Below are positions 16,484 through 30,108 of a DNA stretch of 64,000 nucleotides, piece after piece. The notes under the pieces were generated by a model, which was given only the letters and a program-made list of their open reading frames with translations, was not told where the DNA came from and did no database searches. Position 1 is the stretch's first letter, and every line of letters begins with the position of its first letter. The stretch spans positions 124,001 through 188,000 of the forward strand of contig NZ_SMFU01000009.1 of the NCBI RefSeq assembly GCF_004339595.1, given 5' to 3'. The translations under genes and the position numbers were made by a program. The DNA is from Marinobacterium mangrovicola (GTDB lineage: Bacteria > Pseudomonadota > Gammaproteobacteria > Pseudomonadales > Balneatricaceae).

Positions 16484-17047
16484 ATGAGTAACTCCACACC
16501 GCCAATCGGCATGAAGCTTCGCCACGCTCGGAAAGTTAAAGGGATGCGATTGCGTGATCTGGCTGCGGAGGTTGAGTGCTCTGAGAGTTTTTTGTCAAAG
16601 CTGGAAAACGACAAGGTCCAGCCTTCACTGCAACTGCTGCATCGCATCGTCGCGGTGCTGGAAACCTCCATCAGCAACCTGTTCAGCGATACCGACGACA
16701 ACATCGTATCTCGGGCAGGAACACGCCAGTTGCTGCACACCAGTAACTTCCGCCCGGGTGAAGGGGTAACACTGGAAACACTGATCTCTCCTTCTCAGGG
16801 GCACCTGATGTTCGGCACTATCCACATCGTCCGTGCCGGCGGCGGCAGTTCAGGCCCTATCTCTCACGAAGGTGAAGAGGTCGGATATGTGCTCGAAGGT
16901 GAACTGAATCTCAACGTGGATGGCACCGAATATCACCTCTACCCTGGCGACTCGTTTTTCTTCCAGTCGCGGCTCCCCCACGGTTATCACAACCCCACCG
17001 ATAAAGAGACCCGGGTCCTCTGGGTTAATACCCCCTCCACATTCTGA
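16484..17047 (+). CDS. XRE-family regulator with C-terminal cupin
   Basis: A 187-residue regulator. Residues about 10-64 form an XRE/HipB-like helix-turn-helix (LRHARKVKGMRLRDLA ... SESFLSKLENDKVQPSLQLLHRI). Residues about 110-182 form a small cupin barrel (SHEGEEVGYVLEGELNL ... YPGDSFFFQSRLPHGYHN), the usual ligand-sensing part in PuuR/SutR-like proteins. It sits directly upstream of, and in the same direction as, the livK-amidase operon. A perfect 15-bp palindrome lies 39 bases after its stop, so it most likely controls that operon in response to its substrate. Confidence 0.92.
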   Translation: MSNSTPPIGMKLRHARKVKGMRLRDLAAEVECSESFLSKLENDKVQPSLQLLHRIVAVLETSISNLFSDTDDNIVSRAGTRQLLHTSNFRPGEGVTLETLISPSQGHLMFGTIHIVRAGGGSSGPISHEGEEVGYVLEGELNLNVDGTEYHLYPGDSFFFQSRLPHGYHNPTDKETRVLWVNTPSTF

Positions 17048-17085
17048 TCAAATTCCAGCCAAAAAAGAAAACAACTTTCCCATTG

Positions 17086-17100
17086 GTCAAGTGACTTGAC
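17086..17100. promoter_or_regulatory. 15-bp perfect palindrome, candidate XRE-cupin operator
   Basis: GTCAAGTGACTTGAC reads the same on both strands around a central G. Flanking bases extend the symmetry with one mismatch. Its right arm contains TTGACT (17096-17101), a good -35 hexamer, with a weaker TATGAA (17122-17127) beyond it at a long 20-base spacing. Binding here would block or set promoter use for the livK operon. Confidence 0.7.
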
Positions 17101-17129
17101 TAACGAAAAAGCTTTCCCCAGTATGAAGT

Positions 17130-17304
17130 AGCTGGCCAGGACGGACACCCAGACCGCGAAAAGCGGCCGGGCGCTAAAGCCCAGGGTTCGACCAGAGGAA
17201 TCTTCAGATTCGACTATGGCAAGCCAAGCCCCCTCAGCCTGTTCAGGCAACGTGCGACCTGTTTTGAATCGAGCTTTGAATCAAGCCAATAGGGGGCTTA
17301 CTTG
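17130..17304 (+). promoter_or_regulatory. Structured leader RNA of livK with anti-Shine-Dalgarno (candidate riboswitch)
   Basis: The leader contains a row of short perfect stems: CCGC/GCGG (17154-17166), GGGC/GCCC (17169-17182), GAATC/GATTC (17198-17211), TGGC/GCCA (17217-17226) and GCCTG/CAGGC (17237-17248). AAGCCCCCT at 17226-17234 is exactly complementary over nine bases to AGGGGGCTT at 17291-17299, which is the livK ribosome binding site. The stem at 17217-17226 abuts and slightly overlaps the anti-SD, so two exclusive folds are plausible. I recall a computationally predicted livK RNA motif described near livK and amidase genes, but cannot confirm this is a member. Confidence 0.6.
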
Positions 17305-18474
17305 ATGGGAATCTTACGCAAATCGACAGCACCACTGCTTACTCTCGCGATTACCGCTGCTCTGGGAACCGGTGTAGCAAACGCCAAAGATACTGTGAAA
17401 GTCGCTTTTATCGGCCCACTGACCGGTGGCGTTTCCGCTGTCGGCGTGGGCGGTCGTAACTCTGCGGAGCTCGCGGTTCAGTTACGCAATGCTGACCCGG
17501 ATGCAAAATATGAGTACGAACTCGTTACCCAGGATTCTGAATGCAAGCCCAACGTCGGTGTGCAGATCGCCACCAAGGTTGCCGCAGACCGCTCCGTCAT
17601 CGGACTGGTTGGCCACTACTGCTCCGCAGTTGCCATGGGCGCCGTGGATATTTACCACCGTTTCAACCTGCCGATGTCCGTTTGGGGCGCTGTATTGCCG
17701 GACGTCACCTACGGTAACGACTACAAAGAGATCCACCGTGTAAACGGTACGATGATCAACCAGAACGAAGTCGCCGCGAAGTTTATGACCGATCAGGGTT
17801 ATAAAACCTGGGTCATCATTCACGACACCACCGACTACGGCAAAGGCCACGACAAGTACTTCTCTGAATACCTGACCGAAAACGGCGGCGAAATTCTCGC
17901 CGACTTCGGTGTCCCGGCCGATCAGCAGGACTTTACCGCCGAGCTGACCAAAGCCAAGCAGCTCAATCCGGATGTTATCTACTTCGGTGGCCTGACTCCG
18001 TTGGGTGTGCGCATCCGCGCACAGATGGACAAGCTTGGCATTGAATCCCAGTTCCAGGGCGTATCCGGCATCAAGTCCGACTCCTTTATCGATGGCACCG
18101 GCGAACTGGCCGAAGGCGTCGTCAGCTTCCTGGAAGGTGCTCCGCTTGAGAAACTGCCTGGTGGCCAGTTCTTCTCGGAAAAATACAAGGCAGCCGGCTT
18201 TACCGAATCCGAAGAAGCCTACGGTCCATTCGCGTTTTCAGCCATGAACCTGATTCTGGATGGTATCGAAGAGGTTGGGCCTAACCGTAAAGCCCTGACC
18301 GAATACCTCGGTAATATCCAGGACCATGACTCTGTGGTTGGCAAAATATCTTTTGACGATCACGGCCAGAACACCGTGGCAGCGATCACTCCGTATGTGA
18401 TTCAGGATGGCAAATGGGTGGTCTGGGAAGACAGCGAATATGCTGACGGCACCCGCAAACTAGCTGGTCTTTGA
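17305..18474 (+). CDS. livK: Branched-chain-amino-acid-type ABC importer, binding protein
   Basis: A 389-residue periplasmic binding protein of the Leu/Ile/Val or amide/urea group. It has a Sec signal ending GTGVANA before KDTVKVAFIGPLTGG, then the two-lobed receptor-family ligand-binding fold. The ATG at 17305 is preferred over the TTG at 17302 because of AGGGGG eight bases upstream. The family binds amino acids, short amides, urea or aromatic acids. Neighbouring deacylase and amidase genes argue for an amide or N-acyl compound and not leucine itself. Confidence 0.9.
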   Translation: MGILRKSTAPLLTLAITAALGTGVANAKDTVKVAFIGPLTGGVSAVGVGGRNSAELAVQLRNADPDAKYEYELVTQDSECKPNVGVQIATKVAADRSVIGLVGHYCSAVAMGAVDIYHRFNLPMSVWGAVLPDVTYGNDYKEIHRVNGTMINQNEVAAKFMTDQGYKTWVIIHDTTDYGKGHDKYFSEYLTENGGEILADFGVPADQQDFTAELTKAKQLNPDVIYFGGLTPLGVRIRAQMDKLGIESQFQGVSGIKSDSFIDGTGELAEGVVSFLEGAPLEKLPGGQFFSEKYKAAGFTESEEAYGPFAFSAMNLILDGIEEVGPNRKALTEYLGNIQDHDSVVGKISFDDHGQNTVAAITPYVIQDGKWVVWEDSEYADGTRKLAGL

Positions 18475-18582: not shown

Positions 18583-19503
18583 ATGGATATGGGCCTTCTC
18601 GGTCAGTTTATTGTCAACGGCATGATGCTGGGCATGATGTATGCGCTGGTAGCCGTTGGATTCACCCTGTTTTTCGGGGTACTCGACGTTATCAAGTTCT
18701 CCCACGGCGATGTCCTGATGGTCGGCACCTTTGCCGGCTTTTCAACTTACCTTGGACTCGGCGCCATCGGCATCGATAACGCCTTCGTGCAACTGGTGGG
18801 CGTACTTGTAGTGGCCATCGCATCGATGGCACTGCTGGGCGCGATTATCGCGCGCTACCTGGTGCTGCCGCTCAAATCTGCACCGCCGCTCAACACCCTG
18901 CTCGTCACCCTGATGTTGGGTACCGTGCTGCGTGAAGCGATCCGCCTGTTTTACCCGGACGGTTCCAACCCGAAACGCTTCCCCGCGCTGTTACCCACCG
19001 ATTCCTGGACCATTGGCTCCTTCAACCTGCGCGCCGACAGCGTGATCCTGCTGGTTGGCGGCCTGCTGGTCATCGTTGGGGTTCACGTTCTGATCAACCG
19101 TACCCGTCTGGGGATGGCTATCCGCGCCGTGGCGCAGGATGAAGAAACCGCCAAGTGCATGGGGATCAACTTCAAGATGATCGTCCTGCTCACCTTCGGC
19201 CTTGGCTCCGCTGTGGCGGCTTTCGCCGGTGTCATGAACGGGCTCTACTACAACGAAATCAACTTCGGCATGGGCCTGTTGCTGGGCGTGATCGGCTTTA
19301 GCGCCGCGATTATCGGCGGACTCGGCAATATTTACGGCGCCATTCTCGGCGGCTTTATCTTTGCCGCTCTGCAGACGCTCGGAGCGGTCGCTCTGCCCTT
19401 TGCCAGTGCTTACAAAGACGTGTTCGCCTTTGCCGTTGTTATCGCACTTATCGCCTGGCGCCCCACCGGCTTGATCGCCGAAAAAACCAGCGAAAGGGTT
19501 TAA
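18583..19503 (+). CDS. livH: Branched-chain-amino-acid-type ABC importer, permease LivH
   Basis: A 306-residue inner-membrane permease with about eight spans. The N terminus GQFIVNGMMLGMMYALVAVG, the DVIKFSHGDVLMVG segment and the late GGLGNIYGAILGGF segment are classic LivH features. The conserved cytoplasmic loop (TRLGMAIRAVAQDEETAKCMGIN) contacts the ATPases. It forms the channel with LivM. Confidence 0.94.
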   Translation: MDMGLLGQFIVNGMMLGMMYALVAVGFTLFFGVLDVIKFSHGDVLMVGTFAGFSTYLGLGAIGIDNAFVQLVGVLVVAIASMALLGAIIARYLVLPLKSAPPLNTLLVTLMLGTVLREAIRLFYPDGSNPKRFPALLPTDSWTIGSFNLRADSVILLVGGLLVIVGVHVLINRTRLGMAIRAVAQDEETAKCMGINFKMIVLLTFGLGSAVAAFAGVMNGLYYNEINFGMGLLLGVIGFSAAIIGGLGNIYGAILGGFIFAALQTLGAVALPFASAYKDVFAFAVVIALIAWRPTGLIAEKTSERV

Positions 19504-19508
19504 CTCAC

Positions 19509-20660
19509 ATGACGCAATCATTGAAAGACAAGCTGATTATTCTTTTGCTGGCCGCTCTCGGCGCCGCCTTTCTGGTGACCTTTATCGCCATAGAAGAGCA
19601 GGCAGAGATCTTTGCCCTGCTGGTGTTTGCCGGTGTACTTATCATCGCCAGTGCCAAACTCGGCCTGACCGATAAAATTTCCCAGAGCCTTTCCCGCAAT
19701 GAGCGTTTGCTGAACCTGTCGAGCATCGCGGCGATGCTGGTGGTCATTTTCTGGTTCCATGAGGACCACTTTCCTCTGCTGATGATCGCCACCGTGCTGC
19801 TCTATGTCGTCGCCTGCTGCGGTCTGAACATGCAGTTTGGCTATACAGGTGTGGTGAACTTTGCCGGAGCGGCCTTCTTCGGCGTCGGCTGCTATACCGC
19901 AGCGGTTCTCGGTGGCACCGGCACCCCGCTGCTGCTGGTTATCGCACTCGGCGGAGTCATGGCCGCTATCGTCGGTTCAATCCTGATTATCCCGGTGCTG
20001 CGCACTCGCGGACATTACGCCGCCGTGGTCACCATCGCTTTTGGCCTGCTGTTTCGAACCTTTCTCGAGGTTAACGACACCCTCGGCGGACCTCAGGGGC
20101 TGCCGGTATCCGGCATGAACCTGTTCGGCTGGGACTTCAACAGCAACATCCAGATCACCGAGAACATCGAGTTCTCGTTCTACATGAACTACGTCATCCT
20201 GGCGCTGATCATGGTAATCCTGACCTTCATCCTGATGCGCCGGATCGAGCGCTCCTGGATCGGCCTGAACTTCGATGCGGTGCGCCTCGATGAGACCGCC
20301 GCCGCCTGCTACGGCATCAATATCAAGCGCTGGAAGATCCTGTCGTTCACCCTGGGTAACTTTCTGGCCGGCATCGCCGGTGCTCTATTCGCGATGATGC
20401 TGGGCTTTATTGCTCCGTCCAACTTCGCCTTTTCCGACTCGCTGATCCTTGTCTCCATCGTTCTGCTTGGCGGCATGGGAAGCATCTGGGGCACCATCCT
20501 CGCGGCGGGACTCGTGGTTCTGCTGCCGGAGAAACTTCAGGTAATCCAGGAATACCGCTTCCTGCTCTACGCGGTGGTGATGATCCTGATCCTGCTATTC
20601 CGCCCGCAGGGCGTGCTGCCGCGCAACCTGCGCTCTTACATTCCAGGCTGGAGGGGTTGA
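19509..20660 (+). CDS. livM: Branched-chain-amino-acid-type ABC importer, permease LivM
   Basis: A 383-residue permease with an N-terminal hydrophobic extension, then the LivM core: NMQFGYTGVVNFAGAAFFGVG, RTRGHYAAVVTIAFGLLFR, and the GINIKRWKILSFTLGNFLAG EAA-like loop. It starts five bases after livH and ends one base before livG, so translation is coupled. Confidence 0.94.
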   Translation: MTQSLKDKLIILLLAALGAAFLVTFIAIEEQAEIFALLVFAGVLIIASAKLGLTDKISQSLSRNERLLNLSSIAAMLVVIFWFHEDHFPLLMIATVLLYVVACCGLNMQFGYTGVVNFAGAAFFGVGCYTAAVLGGTGTPLLLVIALGGVMAAIVGSILIIPVLRTRGHYAAVVTIAFGLLFRTFLEVNDTLGGPQGLPVSGMNLFGWDFNSNIQITENIEFSFYMNYVILALIMVILTFILMRRIERSWIGLNFDAVRLDETAAACYGINIKRWKILSFTLGNFLAGIAGALFAMMLGFIAPSNFAFSDSLILVSIVLLGGMGSIWGTILAAGLVVLLPEKLQVIQEYRFLLYAVVMILILLFRPQGVLPRNLRSYIPGWRG

Positions 20661-20661
20661 T

Positions 20662-21447
20662 ATGGAACAGCAACAGGAAACCGTATTGGCCTTTAAGGGA
20701 CTGACCCGACGTTTCGGCGGCGTGGTCGCGCTCAACGAGTTCGATATGGAGCTGACCAACGGCCAGATCGTAGGACTTATCGGCCCCAACGGCTCGGGAA
20801 AGACCACCTCGTTCAACGTGCTGACCGGCATCTACGAAGCCAACGGCGGCAGCATCGAGTTTCTCGGCCAGGACATCACCAGCTGGCCGGCCCAGAAAGT
20901 CTATGAAGCGGGCGTTGCGCGCACTTTCCAGCGCTCACGCCTCTGCCTTGAGCTGTCGATTTTCGACAACATCATGATCGGCGCCCACAAACGTCTGAAT
21001 CACGGATTTATGTTCAACGTATTCAAGCGCAAGGCACTGCAGCAACAGATCAAGGAGAACTACGATGAAGCGCGCAAGCTGCTGACAATCTTTGATCCGG
21101 AACTGGCCGACAAGATGTTTGAGCCGGTGGGCTCGCTGCGCATGATCGACCGTCGTCGTATCGAGATCTGCCGCGCCCTGATCAGCCATCCCCGACTACT
21201 GCTGCTCGACGAGCCTTCCGCAGGGATGACCCACGAGGAAACCCGCGAGCTGATGGATGACATCCTTGAGGTGCGCGAGATGATCGACGGCCTGTCGATC
21301 ATTCTGGTCGAACACGAGATGGGCATGATCGAGCGCGTCACCGACAAGTGCATCGTGCTGAACTTCGGCCAGAAAATCTGTGAAGGTGCTTACCGCGAAG
21401 TCGCCTCCAACAAACTCGTACAAGAAGCCTACCTGGGGGGAGAATGA
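20662..21447 (+). CDS. livG: Branched-chain-amino-acid-type ABC importer, ATPase LivG
   Basis: A 261-residue ATPase with Walker A GPNGSGKTT near residue 38 and Walker B LLLLDEPSAGMTHEE. The LivG-typical FQRSRLCLELSIFDN Q-loop region and the late EHEMGMIERVTDKC H-loop are present. The signature region reads LRMIDRRRIEICRALIS: the usual LSGGQ is replaced by MIDRR. The partner LivF keeps a canonical signature (TMSGGEQAM), so one of the two composite ATP sites would be non-canonical. Confidence 0.9.
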   Translation: MEQQQETVLAFKGLTRRFGGVVALNEFDMELTNGQIVGLIGPNGSGKTTSFNVLTGIYEANGGSIEFLGQDITSWPAQKVYEAGVARTFQRSRLCLELSIFDNIMIGAHKRLNHGFMFNVFKRKALQQQIKENYDEARKLLTIFDPELADKMFEPVGSLRMIDRRRIEICRALISHPRLLLLDEPSAGMTHEETRELMDDILEVREMIDGLSIILVEHEMGMIERVTDKCIVLNFGQKICEGAYREVASNKLVQEAYLGGE

Positions 21448-22166
21448 GCATGGCGACGGCAAGCGCACTTGAACTGAAAAACATCTATGCAGCTTATGAT
21501 TCCGCCGACGTGCTTGAGGACGTATCCCTCTCGGTTCCGGCCGGCAAGATCACCTGCCTGCTGGGCTCGAACGGCGCCGGCAAATCCACCATTATCCGCT
21601 CCATTCTGGGCCTGACTCCGCCCCGCTCCGGCGACATTCTAGTCGATGGCGAGAGCCTGATCGGCCTGCCCACCCATAAGGTGATCTCCGCTGGCATCGC
21701 CTGCATCCCGGAAGGCCGCAAGGTGTTCCCGAAGATGACAGTGGTGGAAAACCTGCGTCTAGGCGCGTTTCAGGAGAGCTCCGAGTCGGTGATCCGCGAC
21801 CGTATCGATCAGGTGTTTGAGATTTTCCCTCGCCTGAAAGAGCGCAAAGGCCAGCTGGCGGGCACCATGTCCGGCGGTGAACAGGCGATGGTTTCTATCG
21901 GCCGTGGCCTGATGGCTGCCCCCAAGGTTCTGCTGATCGATGAGCCTTCTCTGGGCCTGTCGCCGCTGTTCGTTAAGGAGAACTTCAACATCATCCGCCG
22001 CATCAACGAACAGGGCATCACCGTCTTTCTGGTCGAGCAGAACGTTCACCAGACCCTGGCGATTGCGCACTATGGTTATGTGCTGTCGCAGGGTCACGTG
22101 GTTGCTCAGGGCACCGCGAAAGAGCTTTCCGAAAATGCAGAAGTCCACGAAGCCTATTTCGGTTAA
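21444..22166 (+). CDS. livF: Branched-chain-amino-acid-type ABC importer, ATPase LivF
   Basis: A 240-residue ATPase with Walker A GSNGAGKST, signature TMSGGEQAMVSIGRGL and Walker B VLLIDEPSLGLSP, followed by VFLVEQNVHQTL, all characteristic of LivF. It overlaps livG by four bases (ATGA). A second in-frame ATG at 21450 has better spacing from GGGGAGA and may be the true start. It dimerises with LivG. Confidence 0.93.
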   Translation: MSMATASALELKNIYAAYDSADVLEDVSLSVPAGKITCLLGSNGAGKSTIIRSILGLTPPRSGDILVDGESLIGLPTHKVISAGIACIPEGRKVFPKMTVVENLRLGAFQESSESVIRDRIDQVFEIFPRLKERKGQLAGTMSGGEQAMVSIGRGLMAAPKVLLIDEPSLGLSPLFVKENFNIIRRINEQGITVFLVEQNVHQTLAIAHYGYVLSQGHVVAQGTAKELSENAEVHEAYFG

Positions 22167-22195: not shown

Positions 22196-23329
22196 ATGTC
22201 TAATACCAAGATTGATGCCGTCGAGCTGACCCGCACACTGGTCCGCTTCGAGACAGTCAACCCGATCAACCCGGAACAGGGCTGCGTGGAATATGTAGGA
22301 AACCTGCTGGCGGAGCATGGCTTCGAGATCTCGTACCACGAGTTCGCGCCCGGTCGCCCCAGCCTGGTCGCCCGTATCGGCGGCTCTGACAAGAAGCTGC
22401 CACTCTGCTTTACCGGACACCTGGACACCGTGCCCCTGGGTCACAAGGAATGGTCCGTTTCCCCCTTTAACGCCGATATTGTCGACGGCAAGCTTTACGG
22501 CCGCGGCACCAGCGATATGAAATCCGGCGTGGCTGCCTTCGTCGCCGCCGTGATCGAGCTGGCCGACGAGCTGGCCCAGGGCCCGGGTGTAGTCCTGGTT
22601 ATCACCGCGGGTGAAGAAACCGGCTGTGAAGGCGCGGCCCATATGGCCAATCTGGATGGCGTACTGGGTAAAGCCGGCGCTATTGTTGTCGCCGAGCCCA
22701 CCTCCAACTATCCCTTTGTCGGCCACAAGGGCGCCCTGTGGATAAATGCACAGACCGATGGCGTAACCGCTCACGGTTCCATGCCGGAGCTCGGCGTTAA
22801 TGCGATCTATAAGGCCTCCAAGGCGGTCAACAAACTGGAGACATTCGACTTCAAAGCGACCCCGCACCCGGTGATGGGGCCGCCGACGCTAAATGTTGGC
22901 ACCATCGAGGGCGGTATCAACGTTAACTCCGTCCCCAACCAGGCCAAGATCGGCGTGGATATCCGCACCATTCCGGGACAGAAAAACGAGGCAGTGCTGG
23001 GCGATCTGACCTCCTATCTCGGTGAAGAGGTCAGCCTTTCGCCCATGGTCAATCTTGAGGGTGTCTGGACCGCGCCGGAAAACCCCTGGATTCAGTCTGT
23101 TTTCTCGCTGATGGAGAAGGTGCTGGAGCAACCGATCGAGCACAAGACCGCCACCTACTTTACCGACGCCTCGGTGCTGACGCCGGTTTACGATTTTGCC
23201 CCGACCATTATTCTCGGCCCCGGCGAAGCCGCCATGGCGCATCAGACCGATGAGTACTGTTATGTGGACCGGATTCCCCAGGCGGTTGAGGTCTACAAAA
23301 CCCTCGCCCTGCAATGGAATCAGCAATGA
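22196..23329 (+). CDS. M20-family metallo-amidohydrolase (ArgE/DapE/ACY1 group)
   Basis: A 377-residue di-zinc deacylase. It shows GHLDTVPLG (His ligand and catalytic Asp), GRGTSDMKSG (bridging Asp), ITAGEETGCEGA (catalytic Glu) and a dimerisation lid with TAHGSMPELGVNA. There is no signal peptide, so it works in the cytosol. A true dapE is elsewhere in the window, so this copy is not needed for lysine synthesis. It sits between the liv transporter and an amidase, which suggests it removes an acyl group from an imported N-acylated amino compound. The exact substrate is unknown. Confidence 0.88.
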   Translation: MSNTKIDAVELTRTLVRFETVNPINPEQGCVEYVGNLLAEHGFEISYHEFAPGRPSLVARIGGSDKKLPLCFTGHLDTVPLGHKEWSVSPFNADIVDGKLYGRGTSDMKSGVAAFVAAVIELADELAQGPGVVLVITAGEETGCEGAAHMANLDGVLGKAGAIVVAEPTSNYPFVGHKGALWINAQTDGVTAHGSMPELGVNAIYKASKAVNKLETFDFKATPHPVMGPPTLNVGTIEGGINVNSVPNQAKIGVDIRTIPGQKNEAVLGDLTSYLGEEVSLSPMVNLEGVWTAPENPWIQSVFSLMEKVLEQPIEHKTATYFTDASVLTPVYDFAPTIILGPGEAAMAHQTDEYCYVDRIPQAVEVYKTLALQWNQQ

Positions 23330-24609
23330 TCAGTGCCAACCAACTTTCACTGATTGAGGCCGTCCGCGCGATCTCCAGCGGACGGCTCTCCAGCGAAGCC
23401 CTGCTGGCGAGCTGTCTCGAGCGTATCGATGAGCGGGAAAGCCAAGTAGGCGCCTGGATGCATATTGACCGGGCTACTTCAGCGGCAACGGCACAACAAC
23501 CTGGTGCAGGGCCACTCAGCGGTATTCCTATTGGCATCAAGGATCTGATCGATACCATCGATATGCCCACCGGATATGGCTCACCGATCTACAGCGATCA
23601 TTTCCCATGCCGCGATGCCGCCAGTGTTTCGGAGCTTCGTAACGCGGGCGCTATCCTGCTGGGGAAAACAGTCTCGACCGAGTTTGCCTATTTTCAGCCG
23701 GGAAAAACGGCGAACCCTCATGACCTGCAGAGAACTCCCGGCGGCTCATCCAGTGGTTCTGCCGCTGCAGTCGCGGACTTTCATGTGCCTGCAGCGCTTG
23801 GCACCCAGACAGCGGGGTCGATCATCCGCCCCGCTTCGTTCTGCGGTGTCGTGGGTTACAAACCCAGCTACGGACTTTTGCCAATCACCGGAATTCGCGC
23901 CCTCGCGCCCTCCATGGATCACCTGGGCACTTTAACGCGAACCGTTGAGGACGCAGGTTTTCTGGCGGCTATTCTGGGCCGCAGGCCAGAGCTTGATATC
24001 CAGTCGGAGGACGACGATTGGGTACCGAAAATCGGCTTCTGTGAGACGCCGCAGTGGCAGCAGGCCGAGCCATCTACCCAGGCTCTTCTTCGTGATGCGG
24101 CGCAGTCATTGCGCAGCGCGGGAGCAGTCGTGCAAGAGTTCAACCTGCCCGAGGAGTTTTCAGACCTTGGCGAGGCACACCCGCTGGCCATGGACTATGA
24201 GGTCAGCGTTACCGGTCTGTTTGAAGTGACCAACCACGCCGACCAGGTCAGCGCGAGATTTCGTGAACGCTTTGCAGCGGGAAAAGCCACGGCAACCCGC
24301 GACTACGACTCGGCACTGCAAAAGGCACAGCAGGCCAGAGCCGCTCTCACAATGGCGATGGACGCTGCCAGCAGCGGTTGTGATGTGCTGATCTGCCCCA
24401 GCGCACCGGGAGAGGCCCCTGATGGACTGGACGCCACCGGCGATCCGGTTTTCAACCGCATCTGGACCTTCTCAGGCGTTCCCTGCATTAACGTACCGGG
24501 TCTGAAGGGCCCCAATAACCTGCCGGTAGGCCTGCAGGTTGTGGGGCGTTTTGGCGATGACACACGGCTTTTGAAAGCGGCACGCTGGATTCATAGCCAG
24601 CTCGGCTGA
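23326..24609 (+). CDS. Amidase-signature family amidase
   Basis: A 427-residue amidase with the Ser-cisSer-Lys triad intact: Lys72 in GIPIGIKDLID, cis-Ser near 141 in GGSSSGS, and nucleophile Ser165 in TQTAGSIIRPAS. The ATG at 23326 overlaps the M20 stop (ATGA); an ATG 12 bases upstream is also in frame but lies deeper in the previous gene. It hydrolyses a carboxamide to acid plus ammonia. As the last gene of the operon it would yield ammonia from the imported compound. About 50 bases separate it from the convergent EamA gene. Confidence 0.9.
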   Translation: MISANQLSLIEAVRAISSGRLSSEALLASCLERIDERESQVGAWMHIDRATSAATAQQPGAGPLSGIPIGIKDLIDTIDMPTGYGSPIYSDHFPCRDAASVSELRNAGAILLGKTVSTEFAYFQPGKTANPHDLQRTPGGSSSGSAAAVADFHVPAALGTQTAGSIIRPASFCGVVGYKPSYGLLPITGIRALAPSMDHLGTLTRTVEDAGFLAAILGRRPELDIQSEDDDWVPKIGFCETPQWQQAEPSTQALLRDAAQSLRSAGAVVQEFNLPEEFSDLGEAHPLAMDYEVSVTGLFEVTNHADQVSARFRERFAAGKATATRDYDSALQKAQQARAALTMAMDAASSGCDVLICPSAPGEAPDGLDATGDPVFNRIWTFSGVPCINVPGLKGPNNLPVGLQVVGRFGDDTRLLKAARWIHSQLG

Positions 24610-29660: not shown

Positions 29661-29736
29661 TGGTGGGTCGTATAGGATTCGAACCTATGACCAATTGGTT
29701 AAAAGCCAACTGCTCTACCAACTGAGCTAACGACCC
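29661..29736 (-). tRNA. tRNA-Lys (anticodon TTT), copy 2
   Basis: A 76-base tRNA with encoded CCA. The acceptor GGGTCGT pairs with ACGACCC, the anticodon loop is CTTTTAA and the T-loop is TTCGAATC. It is identical in sequence to the copy 18 bases upstream in the transcript. It is last in a Ser-Asn-Lys-Lys array. Confidence 0.97.
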
Positions 29737-29754
29737 ATGGACAAGAGTTGAGAG

Positions 29755-29830
29755 TGGTGGGTCGTATAGGATTCGAACCTATGACCAATTGGTTAAAAGC
29801 CAACTGCTCTACCAACTGAGCTAACGACCC
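29755..29830 (-). tRNA. tRNA-Lys (anticodon TTT), copy 1
   Basis: A 76-base tRNA with encoded CCA and anticodon TTT. All stems are complete and it is base-for-base identical to the copy at 29661-29736. The spacer between them is 18 bases. Confidence 0.97.
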
Positions 29831-29890
29831 GCTCAAACTCTTTTTTACCTTTTCACTTTCCAACTCTCTAATTGCTAGAGAGTCAGGGGT

Positions 29891-29966
29891 TGGCTCCTCG
29901 AGCTGGACTCGAACCAGCGACCAATAGATTAACAGTCTACTGCTCTACCAACTGAGCTATCGAGGA
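29891..29966 (-). tRNA. tRNA-Asn (anticodon GTT)
   Basis: A 76-base tRNA: acceptor TCCTCGA pairs with TCGAGGA, discriminator G, encoded CCA, anticodon loop CTGTTAA. It is second in the array. Confidence 0.97.
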
Positions 29967-30020
29967 ATAACCCTTTGCTTATCTTTCAATAAGCCCGCTT
30001 GCTAGAAGCGCATCCTTAAA

Positions 30021-30108
30021 TGGCGGAGGGACAGGGATTCGAACCCTGGGAGCCTCGCGACTCGTCGGTTTTCAAGACCGGTGCTTTCAACCACTCAGCC
30101 ATCCCTCC
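30021..30108 (-). tRNA. tRNA-Ser (anticodon TGA)
   Basis: An 88-base class II tRNA with a long variable arm (GAGTCGCGAGGCTC region), anticodon TGA in loop CTTGAAA, acceptor GGAGGGA and encoded CCA. It is first in the array, directly behind a near-consensus promoter. Confidence 0.97.

Follow-up and report, generated by a model that had tools for sequence, protein, structure and literature searches.

A candidate cis-regulatory leader RNA in front of a livK uptake operon shared by Marinobacterium and Thalassospira

Introduction

Does the DNA in front of livK in Marinobacterium mangrovicola specify a regulatory RNA, and is that RNA a riboswitch? The question was raised by an initial annotation of one stretch of DNA (64,000 nucleotides, the whole of what was analysed, here called the window), in which a structured leader carrying a long complement to the livK Shine-Dalgarno (SD) sequence was put forward as a candidate riboswitch and perhaps a member of the livK RNA motif. 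That motif is associated with livK and amidase genes. The leader was analysed as a single sequence, in alignment with its homologues and against known RNA families.

Gene context and predicted transcription start

The genes run in the order XRE-cupin regulator, livK, livH, livM, livG, livF, M20 hydrolase, amidase (Table 1). The operon had been said to end in a deacylase and an amidase, and it does end in an M20 ArgE/DapE-family hydrolase followed by an amidase. Best sequence matches of LivK among solved structures were leucine/isoleucine/valine-binding proteins. Among the NCBIfam matches listed, the sole model over its cut-off was that of the DapE-ArgE subfamily, so that no specific substrate is named. 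Marinobacterium lutimaris and five Thalassospira genomes have the same eight genes in the same order (6/6 extended regions, L122-L127). The XRE-cupin regulator scored 92.4 bits against the PuuR model, under the cut-off of 211. It lies directly upstream in all six relatives, is 81-95% identical there, and is likely the regulator of the livK operon.

Table 1. Coordinates of the leader, its parts and the neighbouring genes (positions are those of the window)
Feature	Position	Strand	Remarks
XRE-cupin (PuuR-like) regulator gene	16484..17047	+	Pfam HTH_3/HTH_31 and Cupin_2
Palindrome GTCAAGTgACTTGAC	17086..17100	.	putative operator, overlaps -35
Predicted promoter TTGACT-N17-CAGTAT	17096..17124	+	
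P1-closed domain	17131..17224	+	R1 scores window 79.9 bits; R1 built partly from window leader
P1	17131-17138/17217-17224	+	GCUGGCYA with UGGCWRGC
P2	17142-17145/17187-17190	+	CGGA with UUCG; pairing set by hand
P3	17154-17157/17163-17166	+	
P4	17167-17172/17179-17185	+	bulged A17183
GAATC/GATTC hairpin	17198..17211	+	window sequence only
Anti-SD tract AAGCCCCCT	17226..17234	+	9-bp pairing strong only in window among seven leaders
P6 hairpin GCCU/AGGC	17237..17248	+	short in window; 8 pairs in Thalassospira reference L033
P7 hairpin AAGCC(AAUAGGG)GGCUU	17283..17299	+	holds SD
livK, substrate-binding protein	17305..18474	+	Peripla_BP_6
livH-, livM-, livG-, livF-like transporter genes	18583..22166	+	
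M20 ArgE/DapE-family hydrolase	22196..23329	+	TIGR01910 250.7 bits, cut-off 217.6
Amidase, amidase-signature family	23314..24609	+	PF01425 E 2e-75

A transcription start downstream of 17234 had been named in advance as an argument against the proposed leader. The start is instead predicted at 17131, from a promoter whose sequence and spacing are conserved. TTGAC[CT]-N17-CAGTAT was found in 7/7 leaders, at a distance of 6 nt from the start of P1 in six of them and of 7 nt in L037, and CAGTATG is invariant. CAGTAT is a poor -10, and a generic sigma-70 scan gave no promoter in 16900-17400.

The -35 lies within the right arm of the palindrome GTCAAGTgACTTGAC, which is likely the operator of the XRE-cupin regulator and would be bound by it. 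The palindrome is longest in Thalassospira and is perfect about its central base over 29 nt, the limit of the script, in L033 and L034. Of the 71 other livK orthologues with a located start, 14 are preceded by similar palindromes; the pattern used was loose and missed L036, where a palindrome stands at a similar place, and 3 of 80 loci without a start had been dropped. The distance from operator to livK start was 207-217 nt in five of the six RNA-bearing relatives and 76-119 nt in the 14 orthologues without the RNA, leaders of the latter being 88-141 nt shorter. These distances point to an older operator-promoter unit to which a leader of this extra length would have been added. An XRE-type gene stands on the other strand in several of the 14 orthologues; none was seen in the fetched DNA of L085 and L088. 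As in PuuR-like (XRE-cupin) operons, a regulator gene is found beside an uptake operon with a palindromic site. Here, unlike there, an extra structured RNA lies between operator and first gene, which makes the leader 88-141 nt longer.

The leader in the window

Both halves of the pairing described in the initial annotation are present: the nine-base tract AAGCCCCCT is exactly complementary to AGGGGGCTT (17291-17299), which contains the livK SD (AGGGGG, 17291-17296, 8 nt 5' of the livK ATG at 17305). When 17131-17280 was shuffled 3000 times with dinucleotides kept, 13 of the shuffles contained a perfect complement of at least 9 bases to the SD region. For a single leader such a match is unusual, but it is less remarkable as the best one in a window of 64 kb. 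The predicted fold of the window leader also contains the short stems that had been listed. Folding energy was -62 kcal/mol against a shuffle mean of -60.5 kcal/mol (z -0.34), and 71/200 shuffles folded at least as stably, so that single-sequence stability is ordinary. One sequence is therefore no proof of a structured RNA, and the evidence comes from comparison.

None of the other six leaders is predicted to form the GAATC/GATTC hairpin; in four of them (L033, L034, L036, L037) the matching stretch folds into a different hairpin. A near-repeat, TTTTGAATCGAGC / TTTGAATCAAGC, was noticed at 17261-17287, a region in which both Marinobacterium leaders have 12 nt that are missing from the Thalassospira leaders. 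The letters CAAGCCAA occur at two places in the window only, 17220-17227 (P1' strand) and 17282-17289 (5' arm of P7), which would allow P1' to pair with GGCUU as well in the window species.

Homologous leaders and their distribution

Homologues were taken from a LivK genome scan, in which the best 80 of 165 loci were kept. With the window leader as query, blastn aligned M. lutimaris at 79% identity and five Thalassospira loci at 61-66% local identity (E 4e-22 to 3e-12); among the other 74 livK loci only L087 appeared (E 0.42). M. lutimaris belongs to the Gammaproteobacteria and Thalassospira to the Alphaproteobacteria, and the leaders precede orthologous livK genes in both. The comparison set thus consists of seven leaders, five of them from one genus. 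Fourfold sites of livK were 67% identical between the window and M. lutimaris and 40-44% identical between the window and Thalassospira. Because leader identity exceeds these values, conservation is stronger in the leader than at silent sites, with the limit that leader identities come from local blastn alignments and that gapped identities are inflated (the spacer after livK also reaches 60-75%).

For the P1 domain a covariance model, R1, was built on the hand-set structure from six of the seven leaders, and those six match by construction. In the livK loci the leaders scored 66-107 bits, the held-out L036 66.4 bits. At E up to 1, 73 of the 74 other livK loci were without a match, and the next match scored 21.1 bits (E 0.13). 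Sampled, strictly filtered genome sets were then covered with R1, giving 1/398 genomes for the phylum and 1/390 for the order (the window's own in each), and 2/385 for the class of Thalassospira (one known Thalassospira and G836 at 25.1 bits). The G836 match (E 0.04) lies within open frames of at least 100 codons and was discounted as a chance match, like those of 23.6, 22.0 and 21.1 bits.

Within Thalassospira, the leader RNA was found in 5/29 genomes (E up to 0.1), and a livK orthologue (E up to 1e-100) in the same five. In the window's family, a long blastn match was obtained in 2/116 genomes, the window's own and G041 (E 2e-57), the latter being the M. lutimaris locus by position; short matches at E up to 10 occurred in nearly all genomes, the best with E 0.007 over 25 nt. 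Each of the six relatives' genomes holds one good copy of the leader, and two gave a second match of 22-24 bits. Plasmids were searched too: in 16 records the best-matching places all began at or beyond query base 384 (window 17383), so that none extends into the leader. Homology of the leaders and their co-occurrence with the operon are thus supported by the computation. From the possession of the whole operon with its leader by Marinobacterium and five of 29 Thalassospira genomes we infer that transfer between classes is likely.

A small upstream frame, whose AUG or GUG straddles the beginning of the P1' strand (17216 in the window), might couple its own translation to that of livK. ATG stands at the aligned place in five leaders and GTG in two, and the frame is open to the livK start or beyond in 7/7. 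In the window and in L035 its stop codon includes the A of the livK ATG, and in L037 the stop falls at +4. In the window the frame spans 17216-17305, 29 codons from the ATG at P1'. The frame is nevertheless not kept: it ends at +1, +1, +4, +17, +155 or +155, or is fused in frame (L036), its indels are not multiples of three, and no conserved SD was seen before its start. Since frames differ between leaders, a leader peptide was judged unlikely and rejected, and translational coupling through this frame is considered very improbable.

Conserved structure and covariation

RNAalifold was run on sequence-only alignments. For the seven leaders, z was -4.5 for the whole leader (0/300 column shuffles reached the consensus energy), -2.5 for the P1 domain (3/300) and -4.2 for the 3' part (0/300); for Thalassospira alone the corresponding values were -5.4, -4.1 and -3.9 (0/300 each). 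With seven leaders, the structure conservation index was matched in 2/300 shuffles for the whole leader, 116/300 for the P1 domain and 6/300 for the 3' part; with Thalassospira the respective counts were 1, 40 and 26 of 300. The index of the P1 domain is ordinary. The consensus folds contain P1, P3, P4, P7 and a P6-like hairpin. They do not contain the hand-set P2, in place of which GUCG(G) is paired with the 3' side of the junction, and they add a GAAAC/GUUUUC pairing that was left out of the hand-set pair count.

For the hand-set structure, 87.3% of 259 cells were paired in the seven rows, compared with 83.4% in shuffled alignments (0/500) and 20-51% when the structure was slid. The covariation score was 0.158 (shuffled 0.110, reached by 0/500) and lay above all slid controls. 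Four pairs showed two-sided changes, one in P3 and three in P6; this count was reached by 9/500 shuffles and does not exceed that of the slid controls (2-4). With Thalassospira alone, 94.1% of cells were paired (90.0% shuffled, 0/500), and four pairs again showed two-sided changes (7/500 shuffles; slid controls 1-3).

The two-sided changes in the sequence-only alignments are C-G/U-A in P3 and G-C/A-U in P6. The hand alignment adds A-U/G-C in P3 and U-A/C-G in P4; the comparison of P3 between genera and the P4 change depend on it, sequence-only alignments giving P4 without a two-sided change and P3 with one. No two-sided changes were found in P1, P2 or P7 among the seven leaders. All five P7 pairs are present and invariant in 7/7, so covariation is uninformative there. 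Mismatches were seen in P1 (G-A, both Marinobacterium leaders), in P2 (L032 and L037) and in P4 (A-C, L037).

Alignment of homologous leaders in search of covarying stems, which had been proposed as a check, thus yields a structured, conserved livK leader with several conserved helices and with two-sided changes in P3 and P6 (in P4 when aligned by hand). That nothing but descent and DNA-level control has kept these letters, the RNA itself doing nothing, would agree with the ordinary single-sequence fold, the ordinary P1-domain index and a seven-row count of two-sided pairs no greater than in the slid controls. We regard this as extremely improbable, given a consensus energy reached by 0/300 shuffles, a covariation score reached by 0/500 and above all slides, and a leader identity above that of fourfold sites.

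Pairing of the Shine-Dalgarno sequence

In the window, the SD is predicted to pair with the anti-SD tract at a probability of 0.99. The fold with P7 forced has -54.4 kcal/mol and the best fold -61.8 kcal/mol; P7 is predicted not to form there, because the anti-SD pairing wins by 7.4 kcal/mol. In M. lutimaris the five G's of the SD pair with the tract at 0.02-0.51, and in the five Thalassospira leaders SD-tract pairing is at most 0.11. In four of these five, the last two SD G's are predicted to be paired in P7 and the first three to be free in the P7 loop; in L035 the SD is predicted to pair mostly elsewhere. As SD-tract pairing is weak outside the window and the P7 stem is found in 7/7, P7 and not the long anti-SD is the conserved feature. 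The anti-SD switch is therefore unsupported as a conserved mechanism, and the weaker pairing in the closest relative, M. lutimaris, is one of the outcomes that had been named in advance as refuting it; it may well work in the window species. A stem on the aptamer side had been described as abutting the anti-SD. P1 does adjoin the tract, but the two have no base in common.

No conserved, mutually exclusive pairing that would link P1 to the SD was found among the seven leaders. No terminator-like site was found in 16900-17400, and an intrinsic terminator was dropped as a candidate. Of the features expected of a riboswitch, a conserved structured domain in the 5' UTR (as placed by the predicted start) is present, with the reservations on structure index and two-sided changes given above; no conserved SD-hiding alternative pairing was found among the seven leaders, and no terminator in 16900-17400 of the window.

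Alternatively, an RNA-binding protein, an Hfq-type sRNA or another factor might act on the leader in trans, or the leader might mainly protect the 5' end of the mRNA. In favour of this are the UGUUUU that is invariant in 7/7, the predicted +1 at the first base of P1, and the three SD G's in the P7 loop that are predicted to be free in four of five Thalassospira leaders. We consider this explanation unlikely. A pseudoknot of UGUUUU with the P3 loop, inspected by eye, an RNA thermometer and a CsrA site were also weighed and not adopted.

Known RNA families

No match to the leader reached the cut-off of an Rfam 15 family in the window, its own genome or the loci of the six relatives. At gathering scores only four tRNAs were matched in the window, away from the leader; the four tRNA genes lie at 29664-30108 on the minus strand, and those at 29664-29736 and 29758-29830 have the same letters. 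Three snoRNA matches around the leader, obtained with permissive thresholds, were sub-threshold and were set aside, as were four sub-threshold matches in the six relatives' loci. One of these four, an STnc490 match in L034 (26.5 bits, cut-off 56), ends before the P1 domain.

Membership of the livK RNA motif (RF01744), which the initial annotation had raised, is not borne out, the gathering cut-off of 65 bits not being reached. RF01744 gave no match in the window at gathering, in 16800-17500 and the window's own genome at E up to 10, or in L032-L037 at E up to 5; 14 control genomes also all stayed below the cut-off, so that the search ran without a true positive control. A table in PMC2864571 places RF01744 in Pseudomonadales. 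RF01744 is likewise a candidate cis-regulatory RNA and shares with the window leader its position before livK. The two differ in size, the RF01744 model having 84 positions and leaders of the window type measuring 159-170 nt from P1 to P7. A literature search, with most subscription papers and all preprints outside its scope, returned no paper title naming this leader element.

Discussion

A new, narrowly distributed cis-regulatory leader is the best reading of these data, and a riboswitch is possible. We consider it moderately probable that a horizontally spread uptake operon has here a conserved 5' UTR whose structure acts in cis in the post-transcriptional control of livK. Transcription would start at about 17131, just 3' of the palindrome, an operator that the XRE-cupin regulator probably recognises, and with this start the RNA begins with P1. 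P1 would enclose P2 and the P3/P4 three-way junction. Ribosome access to the livK SD may be set further 3' by P6 and by P7, the hairpin holding the SD, and in the window species the 9-bp anti-SD pairing could close the SD more firmly. If P6 and P7 set access in this way, control would be added after transcription, at translation initiation and perhaps at mRNA life, of the binding protein. The leader thus probably has a part in setting the amount of uptake protein made.

Whether the P1-closed junction also binds a small molecule of the operon pathway (an amide, an acyl-amino acid or a product) and so alters SD access is a narrower matter; such a new riboswitch is conceivable but doubtful. The architecture is suitable, with a compact P1-closed three-way-junction domain at the 5' end and then an SD hairpin, and the same transporter and hydrolase operon lies downstream in 7/7. 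Translational riboswitches that hide the SD likewise have a 5' structured domain followed by an SD-bearing hairpin; the livK leader differs from them in that its ligand is hypothetical and that no conserved alternative pairing was found in the seven sequences. In the Thalassospira leaders, 11/14 columns are invariant in the 14-nt stretch that directly follows P2 (GGAAGRAACAUAAA), with fourfold sites of livK 57% identical, and loops L3 and L4 vary while this stretch is kept, a pattern expected of a bound core. The rest of the Thalassospira junction is less regular (6/13 columns invariant, part of it perhaps paired in a hairpin), and all unpaired P1-domain columns taken together are 71% identical there, compared with 87% for paired ones.

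Between genera, however, 2/49 unpaired columns of the P1 domain are invariant (32% identity, a figure lowered by misalignment) against 27/48 paired columns (72%). The two Marinobacterium leaders agree at 12/26 junction places, below the 67% of fourfold sites, while their paired P1-domain columns agree at 42/48. With the junction so unlike between genera, either function differs or the sequence of the junction matters little in Marinobacterium. The lack of a conserved pairing from P1 to the SD, the unconserved anti-SD and the restriction to one gene context in two genera also speak against a riboswitch. More tentative still is a narrow new riboswitch class that was carried with the operon between Gamma- and Alphaproteobacteria, senses the transported amide or acyl-amino acid and controls livK through P7.

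The element described here is a conserved RNA with no Rfam 15 family at cut-off, which accompanies a single uptake operon in two proteobacterial classes. In relatives that lack the RNA a similar operator is kept and the leader is shorter, which provides a natural experiment in which a layer of RNA control would have been added to an operon governed by a transcription factor. A ligand, should there be one, would point to the substrate of the transporter, hydrolase and amidase set.
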